Virus record (IMG/VR): IMGVR_UViG_3300031565_000427
Coordinates: 1 to 22,061 of that record
DNA: 22,061 bases
Reading direction: 5' to 3' (one strand)
Source: a virus
Notes under the pieces: generated by a model
What the model was told of the DNA's origin: nothing
Seen by the model: only the letters and a program-made list of their open reading frames with translations
Database searches by the model: none
Position numbers and translations under genes: made by a program
Part shown: piece by piece, positions 1,427-21,817 of the stretch
Numbering within the stretch: the stretch's first letter is position 1
Layout of the letters: each line of letters starts with the position of its first letter

Positions 1427-3082
1427 TTACGCCGGATCAATGATCACCCAAGCAACGACGCAGGTATCTGTGCCTGACGTTGAAGTGATAGTGAATGAAG
1501 TAGAATCAACTCTAGCTGAAACATACGCAGCGCCAGGGGTACCGCCGTTTGGATCTTGGCAAGTCAGCATAATCTCACTAGCAGTCTTAGCTGCCGTTGT
1601 GTTTACCGTAACTGTGCCAGCTACCAGAGTGCTCCTACCCATCTTCGCGTTCGCGCCTTCTTTTATTTCTAACCCCTTGCCTACCGTTGTGAGAGAGAGG
1701 TTAGTTGAGATGTCTGTGTCATTAGTCGACGCGTTTAGCGTGATGTAATCATCGTTATTAATACCGATAGTAAAGTTTTTCTCTACTCCTGTGCCCGTTG
1801 TGAACTGCTGGAATACAAACTTATCGGGGCTATCCAGATATCCGAAGCGGATAGTTTCAGCATTCCCCGCTCCGTCGTTTAGCCCCTCTACTTGAATTAG
1901 GGTGTCTTCGTTTGAGGTGGGTGTGGCATCGCTTATGATTCTTACAACGTCAGCCGCTTTCATATCGATAGAGACAGCTTCTACGTTATCCGCTGACAGG
2001 ACGTTATTACTGTCCATGTTTAGATTCACGCCAGTTAGCTTGACTGGTACTGTAGTGAATTCAGAATCAGTCCCGTCTAGTACTAAGCTGTCTACTCCAG
2101 CGACTTTCAGGCTTAGATCGGTAGCGCTATCAATATCTTCTGTGTACACAACGCCGCTAGTGTAGACGTCTTTCCATCTTTCGCCAGTCGTACCCAAATC
2201 CTCAACTCCGCTAGTGCCCCTAGGAGATATATCCGCAGAGCTAACTCTCAGCCCTCCGCCGCCGGCGGTAGCCATTGTTATTTCACTCTCTGATCCAAGA
2301 AAAACTCCACCGCCACCACCGTTTGATACAGGCACATCAAACTCAATTCCTGGTACGTCGCCGTTATCATTTGAACTAATCCACAGTGGGTAAGCCCCAC
2401 CACTGTTAGTCTGCCTGACTATAATAGAGTGATAGTTCGTTAAAATATCCTCGACCGATCCCATCGCAAGGTAGGCGGTATCTGTGTCGCCTGGCTTACC
2501 CTCCTGGTATAAATTAATCGCTACTGCGTCAGTCCCGTCAGCATCAGCAGAGGTCATATTCAAATACATTGGAGTAGTGGTAGCTGGTGCCTCCATATCT
2601 ATGATCCCGTTTGTACCAGGAGCTATGGTGTCTACATTTACTAGGTTGTTATTACCCAGATCAATATTTCCAGCCATCGTTTTACTGCCATCTAGATACA
2701 GTGAGAGGGGATCGACTTCTACTCCTGAAATATCCCACGTACCGTTAGACGTGCCGTTATCTATTAGCCTAAACATAGAATCTGACGACGCAGTAGCTGA
2801 CAGCGCAGCAGAGTTATCATCGTACTCAACTGAAATAACCCCCGTTGATTTATTCATCACCTCAACGGACCAGCCGTTAGGCAGTGTAGTAGCGTCAGGC
2901 AGCACTAGCGTCTGGGTAGTAGCGCCAGTGAACTGCTGGTACGGATCAGAGGTTGCGACTAGTGTAGTCGTACCCGCTGCCGTCGCTGTCGTGGTGACAG
3001 ATTCAACTAAGCGCTTGTTTTTAAAATATACGTCAGCCGTCGCTGACAAACTCATTAGAAGTATTATAAAAATAGTTTTCAT
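1427..3082 (-). CDS. tail fibre-like protein with an N-terminal signal peptide
   Basis: A 551-residue protein. Residues 1-16 (MKTIFIILLMSLSATA) form a textbook Sec signal peptide: Lys-2, a hydrophobic core and an A-x-A cleavage site before Asp-17. This is unusual for a virion protein. The rest is rich in Thr, Ser, Asn, Gly and Asp. LGTTGERWKDVYTSG at 296-310 is the recurrent fibre motif (LG..xxRWKDlY.SG) that occurs in many tail fibres. The C-terminus, with SFTITSTSGTDTC then VAWVIIDPA, matches the ending of many phage fibre and spike proteins (VAW.II.PA). The gene is preceded by a strong AAGGGG ribosome site 5 nt before ATG and sits between another fibre-like gene and the hub-like gene. The fibre assignment is good; its receptor and the reason for the signal peptide are unknown. 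Confidence 0.72.
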   Translation of the reverse strand: MKTIFIILLMSLSATADVYFKNKRLVESVTTTATAAGTTTLVATSDPYQQFTGATTQTLVLPDATTLPNGWSVEVMNKSTGVISVEYDDNSAALSATASSDSMFRLIDNGTSNGTWDISGVEVDPLSLYLDGSKTMAGNIDLGNNNLVNVDTIAPGTNGIIDMEAPATTTPMYLNMTSADADGTDAVAINLYQEGKPGDTDTAYLAMGSVEDILTNYHSIIVRQTNSGGAYPLWISSNDNGDVPGIEFDVPVSNGGGGGVFLGSESEITMATAGGGGLRVSSADISPRGTSGVEDLGTTGERWKDVYTSGVVYTEDIDSATDLSLKVAGVDSLVLDGTDSEFTTVPVKLTGVNLNMDSNNVLSADNVEAVSIDMKAADVVRIISDATPTSNEDTLIQVEGLNDGAGNAETIRFGYLDSPDKFVFQQFTTGTGVEKNFTIGINNDDYITLNASTNDTDISTNLSLTTVGKGLEIKEGANAKMGRSTLVAGTVTVNTTAAKTASEIMLTCQDPNGGTPGAAYVSARVDSTSFTITSTSGTDTCVVAWVIIDPA

Positions 3083-3091
3083 TTCTTCCCC

Positions 3092-4891
3092 TTAATCATT
3101 TTCTACAGCTATGTATTCTAATACGTAGTTCGCCGAATCTGTGTTTGCAGGCCAATCAAATGTACACCCAGTCGATGACTTCGCTGTGGGCACTATCTCC
3201 TGAATCTGAGGCGTGATGTCTGTGCTGTTAAACATGATCGCAGTTACGTTGTAATCTGTAGTCCCGATGTCTGAGCTAAAAACAACCGCCTTAGTAGAAA
3301 TTCCACTGGCTAGCGTTTCAGACGCTGATCGGAACTGTTTACCGTTCAAACTATTAGGCCCGCTATTATCTCTCACCACAAAATCTAGGCTGTAATTAAC
3401 ACTATCTGTATTAGCAGACCATACAGCGGTGAAGGAGGTAGCTAGCTTAGAGGTCACGATAACAGGTACTAGGATAGGCGAGCCGTCTACTAGGTTAGTA
3501 AGCATCCCAGTCACCGCGTAATCGGTAGTGCCCATGCTAGAGAATGGGATTGACGCCGTTGCCACACCGTTAGCTATAGCTGTCGATCCGCTCTGAATCG
3601 AAACCACAGAGCTATCATTTCTGCTCGCTAAATAATCCAAGAAATAATTGATGCTATCTGTACTAGCAGACCATTCTGCCGTGAAGCCAGTTGAAAGTTT
3701 AGTAGTTACTGTTACAGGCGTGATAATAGGTGAAGCGTCTGTAAGGTTTACTAGATTTGCCTTCACACTGTATGAGGTGTCGCCGATGTCTGAGCTAAAC
3801 ACTGGTGAAATCGTAGAGATTCCGCTAGCTAGAGAGACGCTGGCCGATCTAACTACAAAGTCTCCGACAAGCGGAGGGGCTGCGTTATCTCGGATGATAA
3901 AGTCAAGCAAGTAGTTAGCTGAGTCTGTGTTAATCGCCCAGTCAGCTACGAAGCTATCGTTATTTTTTACACTCACTGTAACCGTTTGAATCTGAGGCGA
4001 GCCGTCTACGAGGTTTATTAGGTTTGCAGTCACCGCGTAGTTATTAGTACCCATATTTGAAAATGGGGCTGTGACTGTTTTAACACCGCTCGGGACTGAT
4101 ACAGTTCCCGCTCTTAAACCTGATGACACAACGGATCCCGCAGTGTCACCGAATATTGCAGGTAGTTGAGAGTAAACTTGGTTATTTGTCAGAATAGGGA
4201 ATAACTCTTGATAGTACCAGGCGACGTCAGAGGCGCCCACGAAATCATAGATTGTCTCGACGCCTGCTATGTCCACATAGAAAGATAGTGTCCACACAGA
4301 GGCGGCTTCTGTTAGCCTTCCATAGACTACGTTACCGTTTGCGTCTCTGAAATAATCTAGTGCGCTAGTACCTGTGGCTTGTCTTAGAAAGAGTTTATTC
4401 TCAGGAGCATTTACCACAACGCCAGCGGTTGTAGAATTCGTGCTAGGTGTGGCTGCTCCAAACTGAGAACTAACATCAGAGCTAGTACCAGAGATTGCGA
4501 CTAGTGATGTAGCTGCAACGAAGCGACCTTGCAGTGGAACGCCTCCAATGCCTGCACCTGTGATAGGAGCGCCTGATCCCTGCGATCCGTCGTGGTTATG
4601 TCCTGTCGTGTCGTTAAAAGCGATGTCGAGTTTATCGACTGCTGTTTTAAGGTTATCCCCGTCAGTAATGACATTCTCTTCAGTGTAATCTAGACCAGGA
4701 GATGACTCAGTAGCTCCTGTCGCTATGCGGGTATTATTCTGAAGCGCTTGGGTGTTTGTAATCGCAGCGCCTGATGCTGGAGTGGTGTTAGCTAGACCGA
4801 CGATGCCTACAGCTACGTCATTGATTTCTTTATCAAGCTTGGCTCGGTTGATCACCGTTGCTTCTACATTTTCACCGTCTGAAATCGCCAC
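3092..4891 (-). CDS. repeat-containing tail fibre or tail-tip protein
   Basis: A 599-residue protein starting with GTG at 4891; AGGGGG lies 5 nt before it. Residues 1-100 are a conserved-looking phage tail N-terminus (VINRAKLDKEINDVAVGI), ending in GHNHDGS, a His-rich motif frequent in tail fibre and tip proteins. Residues 120-250 form a middle domain. Residues 252-599 are four tandem repeats of about 83-85 residues, each ending in a W-[ASP]-x-x-TDS-x-NY signature. Repeats 1 and 3 resemble each other, as do 2 and 4. The beta-rich repeats suggest a rod or receptor-binding module outside the tail. The gene follows the distal tail gene with a 9 nt gap. Receptor specificity cannot be inferred. 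It could alternatively be a decoration of the tail tip rather than a true fibre. Confidence 0.68.
   Translation of the reverse strand: MAISDGENVEATVINRAKLDKEINDVAVGIVGLANTTPASGAAITNTQALQNNTRIATGATESSPGLDYTEENVITDGDNLKTAVDKLDIAFNDTTGHNHDGSQGSGAPITGAGIGGVPLQGRFVAATSLVAISGTSSDVSSQFGAATPSTNSTTAGVVVNAPENKLFLRQATGTSALDYFRDANGNVVYGRLTEAASVWTLSFYVDIAGVETIYDFVGASDVAWYYQELFPILTNNQVYSQLPAIFGDTAGSVVSSGLRAGTVSVPSGVKTVTAPFSNMGTNNYAVTANLINLVDGSPQIQTVTVSVKNNDSFVADWAINTDSANYLLDFIIRDNAAPPLVGDFVVRSASVSLASGISTISPVFSSDIGDTSYSVKANLVNLTDASPIITPVTVTTKLSTGFTAEWSASTDSINYFLDYLASRNDSSVVSIQSGSTAIANGVATASIPFSSMGTTDYAVTGMLTNLVDGSPILVPVIVTSKLATSFTAVWSANTDSVNYSLDFVVRDNSGPNSLNGKQFRSASETLASGISTKAVVFSSDIGTTDYNVTAIMFNSTDITPQIQEIVPTAKSSTGCTFDWPANTDSANYVLEYIAVEND
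3095..4138 (-). repeat. four tandem ~84-residue protein repeats, A-B-A-B order
   Basis: Within the fibre-like protein the repeats span residues 252-336, 343-426, 427-509 and 517-599. The signature WAINTDSANY / WSASTDSINY / WSANTDSVNY / WPANTDSANY closes each unit. Repeats 2 and 4 share RSAS..LASGIST and VFSSDIG, whereas 1 and 3 share PFS.MGT..YAVT and NLVDGSP. They are protein-level repeats; the DNA has diverged considerably. Confidence 0.85.
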
Positions 4892-4900
4892 GTAATCCCC

Positions 4901-5677
4901 CTAAAGTGTCGGCAATATTTGAGCTAGCCGAAAGCGCATTAGTCCTGTTTCGTATTGAAACGGGAATCCCGGTAACATCTCATTACCTCTAAACCCAAGC
5001 CCCTTACCGTCAGCGTTAGTAGATTCCAGTGTACTTTCTAACACAGTATTAGGGCTTGCGATATTCGGCGTGAATTCTAGTAGCCGCTGCTGGATCATCC
5101 AATTAAATAGAGGTGTCCACTGACTAGTCCAGGTCGATTCTGGTATATACCGAAAGCTTACCTGCCAGAATTGCTGGATATTGTAAACGATAGCTTCCTT
5201 CTGGCCTGACGCGCTGATATTCACATTCCCAAACACCTTGCGATCAAACTCAGGAGCTAGGAAATTGTACCCAGTCAGGTTAGGAAACAATCTAGTACCC
5301 GCTGACGTCGTCCCTGGATAGGTAGCAGCGCCAGTCAGATCTGTCTCAGTGAAACCTATCAGCTCGGCCACAGAGACAGACGCTCTAGGGCCTGTGCCAA
5401 ACAGCAGTTCGAAGTCTGCGGTATCAGCGCCTAGCGTTACTAGGTTTTCAGTCCCGCCTGCAATAGTTCTATCCGCAGTCGCTGTAAACACGTTACTAGG
5501 GGCCACTTCTGTGAGGGCTCGCACGATCTCTATCATAAGCGAGGACAGGCTATAGAATCCGAATCTAAGCGTAGCCTGACGCGGTGTTTCAGCAGGTACA
5601 ACTCTGAAATCAATAGCCGCATTATCGTCGTCTACTTCGAAGTTATATAAAAACAGGCTCTGTCCGGTAAGCGCCAT
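4901..5677 (-). CDS. putative distal tail protein
   Basis: A 258-residue protein whose ATG shares one base with the tape-measure stop (TAATG), so translation is probably coupled. LLFGTG (92-97) followed by ELIGFTETDLTGAATYPGT (105-123) is a motif I recognise from many uncharacterised phage structural proteins (LLGF...DLTGA.SYT). The C-terminal half is aromatic-rich (FWQVSFRYIPESTW, WTPLFNWMIQQRL), as expected for a tail-assembly interface. Position directly after the tape measure is where a Dit or tail-tip initiator lies in siphoviruses, so I infer a distal tail role. No family is recognised with confidence, and the protein could instead be an adaptor for the repeat-bearing fibre encoded next. 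Confidence 0.55.
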   Translation of the reverse strand: MALTGQSLFLYNFEVDDDNAAIDFRVVPAETPRQATLRFGFYSLSSLMIEIVRALTEVAPSNVFTATADRTIAGGTENLVTLGADTADFELLFGTGPRASVSVAELIGFTETDLTGAATYPGTTSAGTRLFPNLTGYNFLAPEFDRKVFGNVNISASGQKEAIVYNIQQFWQVSFRYIPESTWTSQWTPLFNWMIQQRLLEFTPNIASPNTVLESTLESTNADGKGLGFRGNEMLPGFPFQYETGLMRFRLAQILPTL

Positions 5678-7692
5678 TACAAGCCCCCTCCGACTGACTG
5701 AATTTTAAAGTCAGTCGCGTCAGCTTCTTCTCGGATCAACTCGACAAGTGCCGATCTGGTTTCAGCAGTATCGAAGTAATTCCCCTCGATGTGAATCGTC
5801 ACATACTTTCGCTTTAGCTCTTCCTGCTCGACCTCTGATGAAATCTCAGGGCCCGGCGAGAATGCCACGTTACTTCCAGTATCTAAGGCAGGTGCAGGCG
5901 TTACAGCCCCTCCGCCGCCAGAGCCTACACCACTAGACGCTGCCGATCGGATAACTCCAGACAGAGCCAAGAGCCCTGCGCCCACTGCTAGCTCTACAGG
6001 ATTCGGCGGCCATAAACCCTTGATTAAATGATACGCGCCTTCTTTGGCCGCGATATCAGCGAGCGTACCTAAGACAGCTTTTTTCATCTGCTCGCCGAAA
6101 ACCCAACCGGCCTGACCAGCAGATTCAAACGCCGTCACCAGTCCACCAGATAGAGACGCTGCTGCCATTGTGCCAAGCTCTGAGTACCTTATTAATTCGT
6201 TAGTACTCTGCTTAGACTGTTTACTCATCCCAGCGAAGAACGCATCCCACGCGTTCTTCTGATGTTTTACCTGTCTGTCTAATAATGCGTTTCGTTTCTC
6301 ATTCTCTGAATCTACAAGAGCCGTAATCTGCTGCTCATAGGTTTCGCGAATGTTAGCTATCGCTATTGCTTTCTCGCCTGCGCGGTTCTTAGCGCTAAAC
6401 GCCGCATCGTTTTCTAGCTGCTCTATTCGTACAGCCATCTCCTGCTCTAACAGCCATTTTCTATTAGCTAGCTCTTCTTCAAATTTAAGTGTACTGAGGC
6501 TGTTTTCTAAGATCGCCTGATTCGTGCCTTTCCTAAGCGCTAAAAGCTGCGCTGAAATCATAAAATCATTCTTACGTTTTTTCTCTAAGTCTACAGCTCC
6601 AGCTAATTCAGCGGCTCTTCTAGCAGCTTTGTTTTTCTCATCGGCTTCTTCAGCATTCCTTATCTTGTCCTGCGCCGCCTTCTTTCTAGCGAGCAGATCG
6701 ATAGACATTTGTATCTGATGTATCTCTTGTTTGTTTCGCTTTATAGAGCCTGCGCCTAATGGGGATTTAGCTAAGTCTTTATTTCTGTCATCGAGATCTG
6801 ACATCTCTAAGCGCAGCAGTTTAATTTGTGCCCCTAGGTCGCCAGCAGCAGCGGCCTGCTTGAGCATCTCTTTAGAAATTTTCTTGTCAGCGAGAAGAGA
6901 AATACCGTCAGCGACTTCTCTAAACCAATGCCCTACCTTGTTATTTATTACTATTCCGGCGACAGCTTTGAAGTCTTCGAGGGCTTTTTTAGCTCTGAGC
7001 AGGCTATCGGTAGTTTCAGTGATGCTTAGATCTACGCCATCATAAGCAGTCTTACCTGCATCGAGAGACGCGTTTAAGATCGCCGTCGCCTGAGCTTGCT
7101 TACTAAGCTCAGTTGTGGCAACGCCTATACTGTCAGCGTAATCTTTATACGCCTTATTCGTATCGACGATTAAACCAAACTGTTTCAGTGTGTCAGAGCT
7201 TCCCTGCTGGATGGCATCGGCTAGCCTTGTGAACGCTGTTTCTGTATCTGTGCCAGCGACGACAGAAGCGTTTCTGGCAAGTCTCATTAGCTCGGGCATT
7301 CGGGCTGCACTAGCTCCGAACGTGACCATACTTTTATTCGCTGTGGCTAGTAGCGCATCTGTAGATACCAGTCCATCAGAGGCGTCTTTCAGGGCCGCCT
7401 TCATCTTATCTCCAGCTATGCCGGATCGTTCGGCTAACAAATCGAACTGCTGATTGAGGGATTCGAGTTTTTCTCCTGCCTTCATCCCCTCGATAGTTTC
7501 TTGAATCGTCTTAATCGATAGCCAGGCAGCAGCCGCTGCAACGGCCATAGATTTCAGTTTGTCAGTGATCCCCCCAAAGGCACGCTTACCAGTATCGCCC
7601 GTTTCCTTCTGGGCGTTCTGTGCCTGCTTCATTCCCGTAAGAAATTTCTTGTTATCTAAATCAAGAATTATTTTTGTCGTATTATCTGCCAC
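5677..7692 (-). CDS. tail tape measure protein
   Basis: A 671-residue protein beginning with GTG at 7692, overlapping the preceding frame by 11 nt. It shows the tape-measure pattern: a short N-terminal strand (KIILDLDNKKFLTGMKQAQ), a hydrophobic stretch at 48-60 (SMAVAAAAAWLSI), and a long helical, Ala/Lys/Glu-rich middle with coiled-coil segments at about 330-470. Near the C-terminus come a second hydrophobic stretch (about 565-581), a Gly-rich linker and a beta strand YVTIHIEGNYFD, the usual tape-measure ending. The protein sets tail length during assembly and probably enters the host envelope during DNA delivery. At about 0.15 nm per residue the length predicts a tail near 100 nm (inference). 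No peptidase or lysozyme motif is visible. Confidence 0.9.
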   Translation of the reverse strand: MADNTTKIILDLDNKKFLTGMKQAQNAQKETGDTGKRAFGGITDKLKSMAVAAAAAWLSIKTIQETIEGMKAGEKLESLNQQFDLLAERSGIAGDKMKAALKDASDGLVSTDALLATANKSMVTFGASAARMPELMRLARNASVVAGTDTETAFTRLADAIQQGSSDTLKQFGLIVDTNKAYKDYADSIGVATTELSKQAQATAILNASLDAGKTAYDGVDLSITETTDSLLRAKKALEDFKAVAGIVINNKVGHWFREVADGISLLADKKISKEMLKQAAAAGDLGAQIKLLRLEMSDLDDRNKDLAKSPLGAGSIKRNKQEIHQIQMSIDLLARKKAAQDKIRNAEEADEKNKAARRAAELAGAVDLEKKRKNDFMISAQLLALRKGTNQAILENSLSTLKFEEELANRKWLLEQEMAVRIEQLENDAAFSAKNRAGEKAIAIANIRETYEQQITALVDSENEKRNALLDRQVKHQKNAWDAFFAGMSKQSKQSTNELIRYSELGTMAAASLSGGLVTAFESAGQAGWVFGEQMKKAVLGTLADIAAKEGAYHLIKGLWPPNPVELAVGAGLLALSGVIRSAASSGVGSGGGGAVTPAPALDTGSNVAFSPGPEISSEVEQEELKRKYVTIHIEGNYFDTAETRSALVELIREEADATDFKIQSVGGGL

Positions 7693-8041
7693 TCTGTCTC
7701 TTCTGGTTTCTGAATACTATCGTAAAAAAATTCCTTGAATCAGCGTTATCCATTACGGGCCTGCGCTCTTTCGGTAACGGCGTGGGCACATCTTTCGTAT
7801 GTATCTGTGAGGCATAAAACCCACGGATGTGCTTGTAGTACTTCGATCCACAGATAGCGATGGCGCCGATATCGATTAGCTCTACACGCTCTGCTGCTTT
7901 GATCTTCTGATAGGAAGAATACATAAGCCAGAAGTGTCGTGCAGGCATCGATAAAACGTAGTCCGTTCGCCATCCATAGAAGTGACATACTTCTCCTAAC
8001 ACCATATGCAAATCAATAGAAATTTCGGGTATGTCTACTCT
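7682..8041 (-). CDS. -1 frameshift extension of the tail assembly chaperone (GT-like)
   Basis: This is the downstream part of a lambda G/GT-type pair. The frame is open from the slippery run at 8041 to the stop at 7682 and adds 119 residues (RVDIPEISIDLHMVLGEVC...RNQKRQSGR) to the first 133 residues of the upstream chaperone, giving a 252-residue fusion. The only in-frame start candidates (TTG at 8011, ATG at 8005) have no ribosome site, which argues for frameshifting and not independent initiation. HFYGWRTDYVLSMP and FWLMYSSYQKI resemble the short T domains of tail chaperones. It overlaps the tape-measure start by 11 nt. The fusion is expected to bind the tape measure during tail assembly and to be absent from the mature virion (family knowledge). 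Confidence 0.78.
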   Translation of the reverse strand, partial: RVDIPEISIDLHMVLGEVCHFYGWRTDYVLSMPARHFWLMYSSYQKIKAAERVELIDIGAIAICGSKYYKHIRGFYASQIHTKDVPTPLPKERRPVMDNADSRNFFTIVFRNQKRQSGR

Positions 8042-8439
8042 TTTTTTTTAGAGTAGTCGTCGCCGCTATTTTCTTTAATCTGTCGCGCTTGGGATTTCCC
8101 CATACTGTGATCCATTACTAACTGTAACAAACCATTTAGCTGCTGCACCGTCATCTTGTTTACCATGTCTCTGGTAACGGTGTCGCAAACGCAAGAATAT
8201 AAATCGGCGTAGTAGGCCAGGAGGGCATCGGCGGTGAGATCGTTTTCTTTACTGAGGGCTGACATCTTTCCAAACATGTTTGAGAGTTTGAAGAAGGTAT
8301 GAGTATCTATCGGTTTAAATTTATGCACCTTACCGAATAACCTGAAGGAAACCTCCTCGGTGTCGAGTGCATCTAAATCCGACACGACCGGACCGCTAGC
8401 GTCCGATCGTGCCGGTTTAATATTAAACATCTTAGGCAT
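8035..8439 (-). CDS. tail assembly chaperone (G-like)
   Basis: A 134-residue, charged and mostly helical protein lying exactly between tail tube and tape measure, the conserved location of the siphovirus tail assembly chaperone. EVSFRLFGKVHKFKPID (29-45) is the beta-strand beginning typical of the family, followed by helices (ADALLAYYADLYSCV) and a polar C-terminus ending SKKKE. ATG at 8439 lies inside the end of the tube gene (8 nt overlap) with no clear ribosome site, so expression is probably coupled. The gene ends on the A9 slippery run described separately, giving a major short product and a minor fusion. It keeps the tape measure soluble until the tube polymerises (family knowledge). 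Confidence 0.8.
   Translation of the reverse strand: MPKMFNIKPARSDASGPVVSDLDALDTEEVSFRLFGKVHKFKPIDTHTFFKLSNMFGKMSALSKENDLTADALLAYYADLYSCVCDTVTRDMVNKMTVQQLNGLLQLVMDHSMGKSQARQIKENSGDDYSKKKE
8041..8049 (-). promoter_or_regulatory. programmed -1 ribosomal frameshift slippery run (A9)
   Basis: The minus strand reads TCT-AAA-AAA-AAA-GAG-TAG in the chaperone frame, so nine A precede a stop two codons later. It contains an in-frame A-AAA-AAA heptamer. Slipping back one base enters the open frame that continues to 7682. I see no obvious downstream pseudoknot; a homopolymer this long can slip without one. Confidence 0.8.
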
Positions 8440-9271
8440 AGTTAGCAGCAGTCATCGCAATAGTGAAGCTGTCACCCAGCGCGAAGTCTGTAGCACCGTC
8501 GTTTAAAGTAAACGATACATACGGAGATACAAACGCAACGCCCACGGTCGCAAGCCCTTGAGGGCCTGTGATGCTACCGTTAACGTCGAATACTCCGCCG
8601 TTAGTAATAGGAGTAACACACGTCATCGTAATAGTTTCGGTAACCGTAACACCGCTGAAGGCAGTCTCGCCTGATACCGTTCCGTCTCCAGTGTTACCGC
8701 CGTCTGCAACGGCAGTCCCTGCAATAGCTGCGACAAGGCCTACAGCGGGATCGCCATGAAACCAGTACCGAGGAGGTACGACGCTATCGTCCGGTAGGAT
8801 TTCCCAGACTACGTTTAGTTTCGACTGCTCAGTGGGGCTAAAAACTAGCTCACTCTGGGCAGTAGCTACGGCTTTATAGAACTGGTGATCTTGAGTTAAG
8901 TCCGCATCAGGCCTTGAGAGAGGATGCAGGATTAATTCCTGTGCCCTGGCCAAGTCATGATCTCCGATCTGTAAATCAAGATAGGTAGCTTTCGATCCGC
9001 TTGAGATCAGCTTCATATGTGGAAAGACTACTTTCCAGTTTTCTTTCAGGTTCGTTTCAGCTAACGAAGTAGTCACTGTTAGAGACTGCCCGCTAACGAC
9101 CTTATCTCTGACTGAGCTACCGGATTGATCTGCTAGAATATTGGATTTTTCGGTTTGAATGCTGAGAGTTACGTTATCTAGCGTCCCTCCGAGATCCACG
9201 CCGCCCAAGGTTACGCGACACGGCGTTAGTTCCATGTTTGTTGTAGTGGTATCTGCAAATGAGTTACTCAT
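8432..9271 (-). CDS. major tail tube protein with extra C-terminal domain
   Basis: A 279-residue protein with a strong AAGGGGG ribosome site 5 nt before ATG. Residues 1-172 look like a tail tube subunit: PCRVTLGGVDLGGTLDNVTL (17-36) is the N-terminal strand pair common in siphovirus tube proteins, and KLNVVWEILPDD (151-162) is a typical last strand. Residues 174-279 form a second domain starting GDPAVGLVAAIAGTAVADGG and containing GDGTVS, VFDVNG, ATVGVAF and DFALGDSFTIAM. This resembles a decoration-type domain found on other phage virion proteins (GNTGNGT ... GG.F.V..P.G ... DFA.GD.FTI). The extra domain is probably displayed on the outer tail surface. The tube subunit call is strong; the role of the appendage is inferred. 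Confidence 0.82.
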   Translation of the reverse strand: MSNSFADTTTTNMELTPCRVTLGGVDLGGTLDNVTLSIQTEKSNILADQSGSSVRDKVVSGQSLTVTTSLAETNLKENWKVVFPHMKLISSGSKATYLDLQIGDHDLARAQELILHPLSRPDADLTQDHQFYKAVATAQSELVFSPTEQSKLNVVWEILPDDSVVPPRYWFHGDPAVGLVAAIAGTAVADGGNTGDGTVSGETAFSGVTVTETITMTCVTPITNGGVFDVNGSITGPQGLATVGVAFVSPYVSFTLNDGATDFALGDSFTIAMTAANYA

Positions 9272-11471: not shown

Positions 11472-12698
11472 TTAGACAGAGCCATCATTTCCCTGCCAAG
11501 CGAAACGGGGATCAATGAAGTCACCGTTAACGCGTGAGCGAGATTTGAATCTGTAGATGTCCAACTCGAAAGACCGTCCGCTAGCAGGATCTTCCTGCAT
11601 GATAGCGACAGCCTCACGCTGCTGGAGTACAAACCATGGCTTAGAATCATCAACTAAGTACCATGCTTTAGACAGTCCATCAGCACTACCGTTTTGATCA
11701 AACATGTAGCGAGTGATCGTAGCATCAGCGATTCCTTTAATAGGATTAATCGCGAACGCTCCACCAGTGTCACCAGTCGCTGCTGCACCAGATGGGTAGT
11801 AAGCAGAATTAAGGAGAACTGCCAAATCAAACGATTGGGTAGCTCCTGCGATAATTCGGCTAGGACGTACTTGCATTTTGATTTCTTGCAAATTCTTTTG
11901 ATTCATCAATTGAATGATTCCATCTTGGATGTTTGCTTGATTCAACGCACCGTACGCAGTAGGCCTAGTGATACCGCCGCCGCGAAGCGGAGTAGCAGCA
12001 GGCGCCCATGGATAAGCAGTTTCATAGCTAGGCTTAGTTTCAGATACAGGAATCTGATAATCGATGTACTGCATGTTAGCTACAGAGGCTAGCTTTCCAT
12101 AACAGAGCACTTCGTTTAGAAGATTCAAGTATTCGCCGAGTAGACTTGCCTGACGCTGGAAGCTTCCCGTCTGATCATCTTCCAATAGCTCTCTTTCTAC
12201 GGCGTACATAGATCCAAACTTTCGATTCTTAAGTTTCAGATCTAAGGCAGCAGCTCCAACTTCTGGATACGGCATCTGCGGGCCTACCTCACGCGGGAAA
12301 CTTACCCCATGATTAGGTGCATACAATTCAGTATCAAGAGTAGAAGGAACTACAGTAACCCAGTCTTCGTAGGTAGTATCGACAGCTTCATACGCAGCTT
12401 GCGTAATATTCTGGATTCCAGCACGAAGAAATTGCGTGAAGGTAGAAGAAGCGTCAGCCTCTGCTAACTTCGTACGAAGTTTCTTCCAGCTAAATGACTC
12501 AGACATAACAGGAAACTGCTCGGGATCCGCGACGTCGATTCCGAATTGTTTCTTTAGCCCTTCTCGCAGTCCTTTAGCTTCATCTTGTTTCCAGAAGAAG
12601 TTATGAACTACTTTCTTATTTCGCTCGCGAAGCTTACTGGTCGGCTTTAGTCGCCCAGTAGTTTCGAGAAGCTTTTTAATGTCTTCTATAGTTTTCAT
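11472..12698 (-). CDS. major capsid protein (HK97-fold)
   Basis: A 408-residue protein with an AAGGGG site 7 nt before ATG. Residues 1-75 are charged and helical, like a delta or N-arm region. The middle carries WVTVVPSTLD, PREVGPQMPYPEVG and KFGSMYAVERELLEDD, where capsid proteins have the E-loop and spine-helix region. The P-domain/A-domain part includes VRPSRIIAGATQSFDLAVLL, and the ending WYLVDDSKPWFVLQQREAV followed by FELDIYRFKSRSRVNGDFID is the classic C-terminal strand set of HK97-fold and Mu gpT-like major heads. It follows protease-scaffold and decoration genes and precedes a stable hairpin. It forms the procapsid lattice. No Lys/Asn crosslink pair can be assigned. Confidence 0.88.
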   Translation of the reverse strand: MKTIEDIKKLLETTGRLKPTSKLRERNKKVVHNFFWKQDEAKGLREGLKKQFGIDVADPEQFPVMSESFSWKKLRTKLAEADASSTFTQFLRAGIQNITQAAYEAVDTTYEDWVTVVPSTLDTELYAPNHGVSFPREVGPQMPYPEVGAAALDLKLKNRKFGSMYAVERELLEDDQTGSFQRQASLLGEYLNLLNEVLCYGKLASVANMQYIDYQIPVSETKPSYETAYPWAPAATPLRGGGITRPTAYGALNQANIQDGIIQLMNQKNLQEIKMQVRPSRIIAGATQSFDLAVLLNSAYYPSGAAATGDTGGAFAINPIKGIADATITRYMFDQNGSADGLSKAWYLVDDSKPWFVLQQREAVAIMQEDPASGRSFELDIYRFKSRSRVNGDFIDPRFAWQGNDGSV

Positions 12699-20310: not shown

Positions 20311-20631
20311 TTCGTCTCTGTCATCTACCGCCTCTGGCTGTGTATCTCGCCATCCGAATCTGTTTTTCATAGTGAAAATCCACACGGCTGCGTTTGATCC
20401 TTTTAGTTTTCCCACCGCCATCGATCTCCCCATTTTCTCCCAGTACAAAAGAGATGCATCTATTCCACGCTCCTTAGCGTCTTTCCATTCTGGGAATTTG
20501 GCTTCCCACTGATACATGGCACGTCGATTAACTTTTATCTCAGCAGAGAATGATTCGTAAGATAATCCTTCGGACAGGTGATCAACTAACCTGTCACAGA
20601 ATTCTTTTTTATATTTAGGTTTTGCTGGCAT
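20287..20631 (-). CDS. terminase small subunit
   Basis: A 114-residue protein. YKKEFCDRLVDHLSEGLSYE (7-26) and SFSAEIKVNRRAMYQWEAKF (27-46) form a helix-turn-helix of the type that opens small terminases, followed by the conserved-looking WKDAKERGIDASLLYWEKMG and WIFTMKNRFGWRDTQ, the hallmark KNrfGWrd segment. It recognises phage DNA and stimulates the large subunit. ATG 20631 lies inside the end of the methyltransferase gene (17 nt overlap). Unusually it is not adjacent to the large subunit: the 510-bp reverse-strand cassette intervenes and overlaps its 3' end by 24 bp. Confidence 0.87.
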   Translation of the reverse strand: MPAKPKYKKEFCDRLVDHLSEGLSYESFSAEIKVNRRAMYQWEAKFPEWKDAKERGIDASLLYWEKMGRSMAVGKLKGSNAAVWIFTMKNRFGWRDTQPEAVDDRDESFEIDVK

Positions 20632-21817
20632 GCTTACCTGTATACTCTTCCCATCTCTGAATTATTACATCGCAATAGTGGGGGTCGATTTCCATTCCAT
20701 AGCATTTGCGCTTTGTTTTCTCGCAGGCGATTAGGGTTGAGCCGGAGCCGAGGAAACCGTCTAGGACTGTTTTTGGCTCGCCGTAATTCTCAAAGCACCA
20801 GGCTGCAAGTGCGACCGGCTTTTGTGTTGGGTGACAACGCTTCTCATTACGTTCTGATTCTTTTATTAGGCCGTTCCAGGTGTGTTTAAATATTCGAATC
20901 GCCCTATTTTGATTAGTCCAGGCTAGCTCGCCGTCGCCTAGCGTTCCGGTGGTATCCTTATCCCAAACAATCCATCCTTGGCTCGGTGGTAGGTGTTCGG
21001 CGTAGCACTGTGCTCCCCAGAAAATCTTGACCTTGCCCTCAAGGGCCTTGATACCCCTAATCGCTGTGTCGGTTGTGTCGTCCCCAACTACTGGCTTGTA
21101 AAGGTTCGCTTTTATTATTTTGTTTTTATGTGTCTCTCGGGATCGCCGACGGTCCCAAACGGCTTTACTTCCCCCTATAGAACCTTGAGGCCCATTGGAA
21201 CCGCCACCAACGTTAACCGCATTTACTCCATACGGCGGATCAGTAAAAACCATATCCGCCTTCTCCCCATCCATCAATCTGTCGACGAGACTCGCGTCCG
21301 TACAATCTCCGCAAAGCAATCGATGCTCCCCCAATTGCCAGAGATCGCCTGGCTTGCAAACCGATTCGACGTCTGTGGGGATTTCATCGGCGCGCGCGTT
21401 TTCCTCTTCCTCTTGTTCTGGCAGTTTAAAATCAGCCATACCGAGATATTCAAAATCACCAATTTCATCTTTCATTCGCCTGGCATCTTCTTCTACCATC
21501 TTCATGTCGGGATCAGACAATTCCTGAATCTTGTTATCCGCTACCATGTCAGCGTATTCTTTAGCTTCACTATCGTAGTCTTGATAATCAACCGGAACGG
21601 TAGCCCACTTGTTTTTAATCGCGGCCAGAAGTCTCCCATGTCCCTTAGTAATAAAACCGCTTCGATTGCTAACTACAATTGGGTATCGCCATCCGTTGTA
21701 ATTAATTATCTTGGCAAGTAATTCAATCTGCCTGTCCGGATGTTTGTTTGGATTGCGTGGGTTTGGTATGAGTTTATCGACGGGCTCTAGCTTGTCATGT
21801 GCACAAAAAACATCCAT
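20615..21817 (-). CDS. ParB-domain / DNA methyltransferase fusion
   Basis: A 400-residue protein, ATG 21817 with AAAAGGAA before it. Residues about 10-95 are a ParB/Sulfiredoxin-type nuclease-like domain: LIPNPRNPNKHPDRQIELLA, FITKGHGRLLAA (GHGR), and YADMVADNKIQEL. Residues about 155-395 are an N6-adenine/N4-cytosine methyltransferase: DPPY at 193-196 (motif IV), HPTQKP at 329-334, FLGSGST at 355-361 (AdoMet binding, motif I) and EIDPHYCDVI. DPPY before FLGSGST is the beta-group order. An 18-residue Gly/Ser-rich insert follows DPPYG. It likely modifies phage DNA before packaging, protecting it from host restriction or marking sites. No partner restriction enzyme is visible. Confidence 0.9.
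   Translation of the reverse strand: MDVFCAHDKLEPVDKLIPNPRNPNKHPDRQIELLAKIINYNGWRYPIVVSNRSGFITKGHGRLLAAIKNKWATVPVDYQDYDSEAKEYADMVADNKIQELSDPDMKMVEEDARRMKDEIGDFEYLGMADFKLPEQEEEENARADEIPTDVESVCKPGDLWQLGEHRLLCGDCTDASLVDRLMDGEKADMVFTDPPYGVNAVNVGGGSNGPQGSIGGSKAVWDRRRSRETHKNKIIKANLYKPVVGDDTTDTAIRGIKALEGKVKIFWGAQCYAEHLPPSQGWIVWDKDTTGTLGDGELAWTNQNRAIRIFKHTWNGLIKESERNEKRCHPTQKPVALAAWCFENYGEPKTVLDGFLGSGSTLIACEKTKRKCYGMEIDPHYCDVIIQRWEEYTGKHASKT

Follow-up and report, generated by a model that had tools for sequence, protein, structure and literature searches.

Organization of the G-T locus

The window, by which we mean the whole stretch of DNA that was analysed, is the IMG/VR virus record IMGVR_UViG_3300031565_000427 with a length of 22,061 bases. 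According to the list of open reading frames (ORFs) and to family searches, its structural genes (terminase, portal, Mu gpT-like capsid, tail genes and tape measure) are located on the minus strand. Two overlapping ORFs, referred to here as G and T, lie between the probable major tail protein and the tape measure, an order that is the same in annotated relatives, and a run of nine A (A9) at the end of G connects the two. The features of this region are as follows:

8432..9271, minus strand: gene that precedes G and probably encodes the major tail protein (Ig-domain PHROGs), with a stop overlapping the beginning of G
8035..8439, minus strand: gene G, tail assembly chaperone of 134 amino acids, the frame-0 product
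8041..8049, minus strand: A9 run, the putative slippage site, with one in-phase A_AAA_AAA inside
8048..8050, minus strand: TAA shutting the -1 frame ahead of the A9, whose first bases it shares
8035..8037, minus strand: TAG, the frame-0 stop of G, one codon past the run
7682..8041, minus strand: T frame, comprising 119 codons and a TAA, accessible only by a shift; the fusion partner in GT
8013..8015, minus strand: TGA, the first stop of the third (+1) frame, 9 codons past the run
5677..7692, minus strand: tape measure protein, with a GTG start within the 3' end of T

The end of G (8052-8035 on the minus strand) reads TCT AAA AAA AAA GAG TAG, and the A9 at 8049-8041 is the sole homopolymer longer than 7 in the window. 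Since the -1 frame is blocked by the TAA at 8050-8048 and frame 0 ends at 8037-8035, the crossover has to occur inside the run or in the next codon. A sequence-only reading of this DNA had described a nine-A run that enters an open -1 frame lacking a ribosome site of its own. This arrangement, which is more than chance, was confirmed in the sequence: the -1 frame is open from AGA (8041-8039) for 119 codons up to the TAA at 7684-7682, where it reaches the tape measure. The only T-frame starts ahead of the conserved domain are TTG, ATG and GTG codons located 29, 35 and 38 nucleotides past the run, and no Shine-Dalgarno-like sequence was detected at any of these three in the window.

Conservation of the A run in related loci

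In the uncultured clade to which the window belongs, each of the 37 distinct G genes has nine or more A in a row near its end (13 A9, 23 A10 and 1 A12; L037 was counted as A9 though its contig ends inside the run). The run starts in codon phases 1, 2 and 3 in 4, 29 and 4 genes, respectively, with a minimum of nine in every phase. Judged from these sequences, its length is thus at least nine regardless of codon phase, even though 29 of the 37 runs are found in phase 2. The base following the run is C in 17 genes, G in 15 and T in 4, while one contig ends in the run. Only 4 other runs of at least nine A were found on the same strand in 482,417 nucleotides of the same loci, one of them (L065) in the same G gene. 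An in-phase A_AAA_AAA requires nine, eight or seven A at start phases 1, 2 and 3, respectively, and its presence in all 37 runs follows from their length and phase (in the window it was seen directly). Nevertheless, no A8 occurs among the 29 phase-2 loci and neither A7 nor A8 among the 4 phase-3 loci.

In each of the 35 loci in which it could be judged (contigs L037 and L059 end too early), the T-like frame is the -1 frame, and T is complete in 33 of them. The T proteins of the clade share only 16-31% identity with T of the window, and clustering of the G proteins at 60% identity gives 33 groups, so the run persists where most else has diverged. Loss of the A run in close relatives, which the sequence-only reading had set against its own proposal, was looked for and not seen in any of the 37 G genes. 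A frameshift caused by sequencing error was rejected, given the same arrangement in 33 diverged clusters.

These loci were collected with a capsid profile (A3) built from the window and 10 of 14 loci; omitted were L025, L026 (100% identical capsid), L036 and L032 (stop codon). The profile retrieved 69 IMG/VR loci and one contig of a Cytophagales metagenome-assembled genome (MAG). An iterated G profile yielded 48 G ORFs; merging those with an identical G core left 37 distinct ones, and most of the removed rows were second copies of the same contig. No G match was obtained in 32 of 80 sources: in 31 of these at most 3.04 kb follows the capsid match, and the remaining one, L103, combines a weak capsid match with 7 kb of sequence. 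L060 was omitted from sets A4 and A5, and L059 also from A5. Scans of IMG/VR with G or T as single proteins returned only IMGVR_UViG_3300031566_001035, which is identical to the window over the stretch compared and is not independent. A profile search with a smaller T set added no contigs to those already in the set, and neither G nor the capsid protein had a tblastn match among 50,697 phage records. The contig of L037, which is the same as that of L079, stops in the A9 at 12313-12321, and long A runs may break assemblies here.

Among bacterial genomes, capsid matches were found only in the one Cytophagales MAG (1 of 395 genomes of its phylum), which may be a binning artefact. In this MAG (G001:C304; L104, L107, L108) the capsid gene is split by ~250 extra nucleotides between residues 325 and 346 and has an in-frame TAA; an Rfam search of L107 and L108 revealed no intron, and Rfam gave no other finding. 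Shine-Dalgarno sequences were present at 223 of 507 first ATGs, which does not decide the host.

Long A runs in other genes and closure of the third frame

A runs were also counted in the remaining genes of these loci (458 ORFs) and compared with the expectation from synonymous shuffling. Runs of at least nine A were found 3 times vs 20.2 expected (standard deviation 3.1) and were depleted in all three phases. A8 occurred 37 times vs 40.4 expected with no phase avoided, and in-phase A7 was likewise not avoided (29 vs 26.9 expected). The picture is not fully clean, as A7 in phase 2 was depleted (22 vs 42.0 expected).

The third frame was analyzed in 33 of the 37 loci, L034, L037, L048 and L059 being omitted because T is cut by the contig end. 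It is closed by a stop at most 3 codons past the run in 22 of the 33 complete loci, vs 11.0 (standard deviation 2.4) expected when the amino acids of T are kept and codons are drawn from the usage of the locus; 0 of 100,000 simulations reached 22. Counted per 60% cluster, the early stop is present in 19.5 of 30. Apart from the window, the loci without it are L049, L047, L096, L043, L060, L094, L032, L038, L091 and L055. Among relatives with classical heptamers, which are partly near kin of each other, none of 8 has an early third-frame stop (7-49 codons).

The 60 nucleotides downstream of the run did not fold better than shuffled sequences (mean z -0.24, with 1 of 35 below -2). A Shine-Dalgarno-like sequence was present upstream in 12 of 35 loci.

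G and T as proteins and their relatives in other phages

G and GT are, with near certainty, tail assembly chaperones, a role that is based mainly on the gene order and on the G-T architecture. G matched phrog_893, for which no function is given, in 34 of 35 clade members. Its AlphaFold model (pLDDT 86) is most similar among solved structures to the HK97 chaperone 2ob9 and to YqbN 3klu (Z 4.9 each, too weak alone), and its best BFVD match is a tail assembly chaperone (E 0.019). The model of T is all-helical (pLDDT 87.5). For neither model did Foldseek return a PDB match at E up to 0.001, neither G nor T matched Pfam, and no lambda protein family was matched in the family searches that were run.

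On the strength of sequence comparison, T is a real protein, as homologous T domains follow G in many other phages. Searching with T by tblastn, we obtained matches (E 1e-6 to 0.3) in Nickievirus (ZY21, hairong, nickie and others), in the Stenotrophomonas phages ANB28 and BUCTxx99 and in Rhizobium phages such as RHph_X66; a further match, L008 (E 0.8), turned out to be a chance match in an unrelated gene and was dropped. In all six loci of named phages that were opened (L003-L007, L009), a T-like frame at -1 immediately follows a G-like ORF and precedes the tape measure. The Pseudomonas and Rhizobium phages carry the ordinary heptamers CCCAAAG, GGGAAAA and GGGAAAG, with C_CCA_AAG at the junction in ZY21 and nickie, G_GGA_AAA in hairong and G_GGA_AAG in RHph_X66. 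Further IMG/VR relatives of T have the same gene order and carry G_GGA_AAN, C_CCA_AAG, G5 runs, or A8 or A9.

Several of these records deserve mention on their own. In L003, L004, L007 and L006 (Nickievirus and RHph_X66, ~2960-3330) the G-T frameshift is unannotated, and the records begin T at a later internal codon as a 'hypothetical' protein. ANB28 and BUCTxx99 (L005 and L009, 2960-3005) have an A8 run with an in-phase A_AAA_AAA in G as well as a T ATG that overlaps the G stop (TAATG), possibly giving two routes to T. Three Nickievirus-like contigs (L014, L018, L021) have no in-phase X_XXY_YYZ at the end of G and instead show a G5 run (GGG GA) just before the G stop, so that another kind of site is possible.

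Of the flanking genes, the one at 8432..9271 matched phrog_2175 (E 2.9e-14) and phrog_1280 (E 1.4e-13), and its position in the gene order suggests that it encodes the major tail protein. The gene at 5677..7692 matched phrog_3779, tail length tape measure (E 0.0018), and showed weak tblastn matches to tape measures of Providencia phages. Its GTG start lies within the last codons of T (7682-7692, an 11-nucleotide overlap), which makes coupling to ribosomes reading T possible. Elsewhere in the window, an ORF of 400 amino acids at 20615-21817 has a DPPY motif and an N-terminal part with a ParB-like look; by these features it is probably a DNA methyltransferase fusion.

Mechanism of the shift

The minimum of nine A in all phases, the avoidance of runs from nine onwards in other genes and the early stop that most relatives have in the third frame together favor transcriptional slippage over a ribosomal shift of the lambda type, and we consider slippage of RNA polymerase at the A run to be probably the main route to GT. 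The products of G and T, namely G itself and the GT fusion, are a chaperone pair for tail assembly like that of lambda. RNA polymerase would slip on the A9, and a share of the mRNAs with one extra A (or two fewer) would bring T in frame with G, while mRNAs of templated length would give G. In most relatives, two extra A (or one missing) would lead to a quick stop in the third frame and to a G-like protein, and the mixed mRNA pool would set the ratio of G to GT. As in lambda, GT would connect the tape measure and the tail tube. We infer the transcriptional nature of the slip, the G to GT ratio and the role in assembly.

Published work on homopolymers is compatible with such a route. Bacterial RNA polymerase is reported to slip efficiently at nine A or T (PMC5009743, PMC1088944), a length equal to the minimum in the clade, and conservation of the 9A length among homologues has been regarded as a pointer to purposeful transcriptional slippage (PMC1088944), while ribosome sliding in vitro requires 11 A (PMC4363877). 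Since single-A insertions prevail among polymerase errors in A runs and rise steeply with run length (PMC5574713), polymerase slippage would also yield a -1 shift. The junction peptide SKKKRVDIPE does not separate the two mechanisms, because one inserted A yields a peptide identical to that of a -1 ribosomal slip.

The sequence-only reading had proposed that the locus reproduces the conserved ribosomal frameshift of siphovirus tail genes. Its G/GT pair with -1 entry in the A9 holds up, given the homologues, the gene order and the weak HK97 fold match, whereas the ribosomal mechanism is less likely than slippage in transcription, the alternative that the same reading had named. Ordinary -1 programmed frameshifting on A_AAA_AAA (or on A_AAA_AAG where present), as in lambda G/GT and with the longer run serving efficiency or offering extra slip positions, is nonetheless a possibility to be taken seriously, if clearly the less probable one. 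A_AAA_AAA is among the listed ribosomal sites (PMC3711429), and the distant relatives of T carry classical heptamers. Against such a mechanism, none of the 37 sites is A7 or A8, A9 in phases 1 and 2 adds no in-phase heptamer beyond the minimum, and in-phase A7 and A8 are not avoided in other genes. Moreover, AAG ends only part of the sites, with AAC and AAT occurring as well, and a ribosomal -1 shift offers no reason for stops in the third frame.

Several observations speak against polymerase slippage, and we hold it at no more than probable because the shift is always -1, the phase is skewed to 2 and the in-phase heptamer is always present. The shift direction is only -1 among the orthologues of the clade, so that the both-direction sign of slippage is missing, and a single direction was taken by Antonov et al. 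as a sign of ribosomal frameshifting (PMC3711429). The in-phase A_AAA_AAA is part of every run, and a single codon phase accounts for 29 of the 37 starts. In-phase A_AAA_AAG is mildly depleted in the other genes (32 vs 45.6 expected), and ribosomes may therefore also slip on A runs in these hosts. The avoidance of long runs could result from replication slippage instead, and the window itself has no early third-frame stop (9 codons). In addition, sites of the lambda type may need no strong stimulator, so the absence of a stimulator says little.

A joint action of polymerase and ribosomal -1 slippage, each supplying part of GT, appears improbable. The run meets the requirements of both in all 37 loci, and in magnesium chelatase cassettes in E. 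coli the yield of frame change rose from 10% with 7 A to 40% with 9 and 63% with 11 (PMC3711429), but by sequence this combination is inseparable from either route acting singly. Very improbable are the readings of T as a separate gene with its own start and of the run as a phase-variation switch at the DNA level. A start codon in the T frame precedes the conserved helix in 16 of 32 loci, but the other 16 have no in-frame ATG, GTG or TTG there and a start combined with a Shine-Dalgarno-like sequence is found in only 4 of 32; on these counts T as an independent gene was rejected. Separate T starts in homologues, which were looked for, may occur only in the distant Stenotrophomonas phages, where the T ATG overlaps the G stop. 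Long runs of A readily undergo slippage in replication (PMC1088944), but no in-frame fused G-T was found among the 37 loci, which led us to reject phase variation, and near-identical G genes differing in run length were not seen.

Comparison with known systems

Lambda G/GT is alike in having two overlapping ORFs between tail tube and tape measure, with T at -1 and without a start, and in producing a short and a fused product (PMC5009743). It differs in its GGGAAAG site, whereas the clade has at least nine A with a threshold independent of phase, and a third frame that is shut early in most relatives. The G-T pairs of Nickievirus and RHph_X66 have a homologous T domain at -1 directly after G and before the tape measure. 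Unlike the clade, they use C_CCA_AAG, G_GGA_AAA or G_GGA_AAG, have no long A run, and their third frame is not shut early.

In dnaX of T. thermophilus, transcriptional slippage takes place at nine A, with near stops in both other frames (PMC5009743). The clade resembles it in a homopolymer roughly as long as the RNA:DNA hybrid and in the mixed mRNAs predicted here (PMC5009743, PMC1088944). However, slippage shortens the dnaX product, while it would lengthen that of the clade, and gene and role differ. Insertion sequence (IS) elements and Shigella spa13/mxiE (A9 or similar) are alike in that slippage fuses two ORFs (PMC1088944, PMC5009743), although one IS630 family has been reported with both directions (PMC3711429) and the clade shows only -1.

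Implications for the tail chaperone frameshift

Ribosomal recoding has a textbook example in the G/GT frameshift, which is conserved across long-tailed phages. Our search of the open-licence PMC literature yielded no account of tail chaperones made by transcriptional slippage; in PMC10299305 the word 'realignment' is used, though not for tail chaperones. What is new is the pattern of the run in the clade, at least nine A in all phases. We give even chances to the proposal that polymerase slippage replaced the ribosomal G/GT shift throughout this lineage, at an A9-A10 whose length matches that of the RNA:DNA hybrid; closure of the third frame would then leave G-like protein and GT as the only products, with GT maybe far above the 1:30 of lambda.

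In lambda, the proportion of GT to G is 1 in 30 (PMC5009743). If the yields in the clade resemble those of the E. coli cassettes (40% at 9 A), GT would greatly exceed this proportion. If slippage is indeed the route, searches for recoding sites that rely on ribosomal heptamers could assign the wrong mechanism, and the ratio of G to GT would be set at the mRNA level in one lineage of phages, in parallel to dnaX, where the shift is made by the ribosome in some bacteria and by the polymerase in others.

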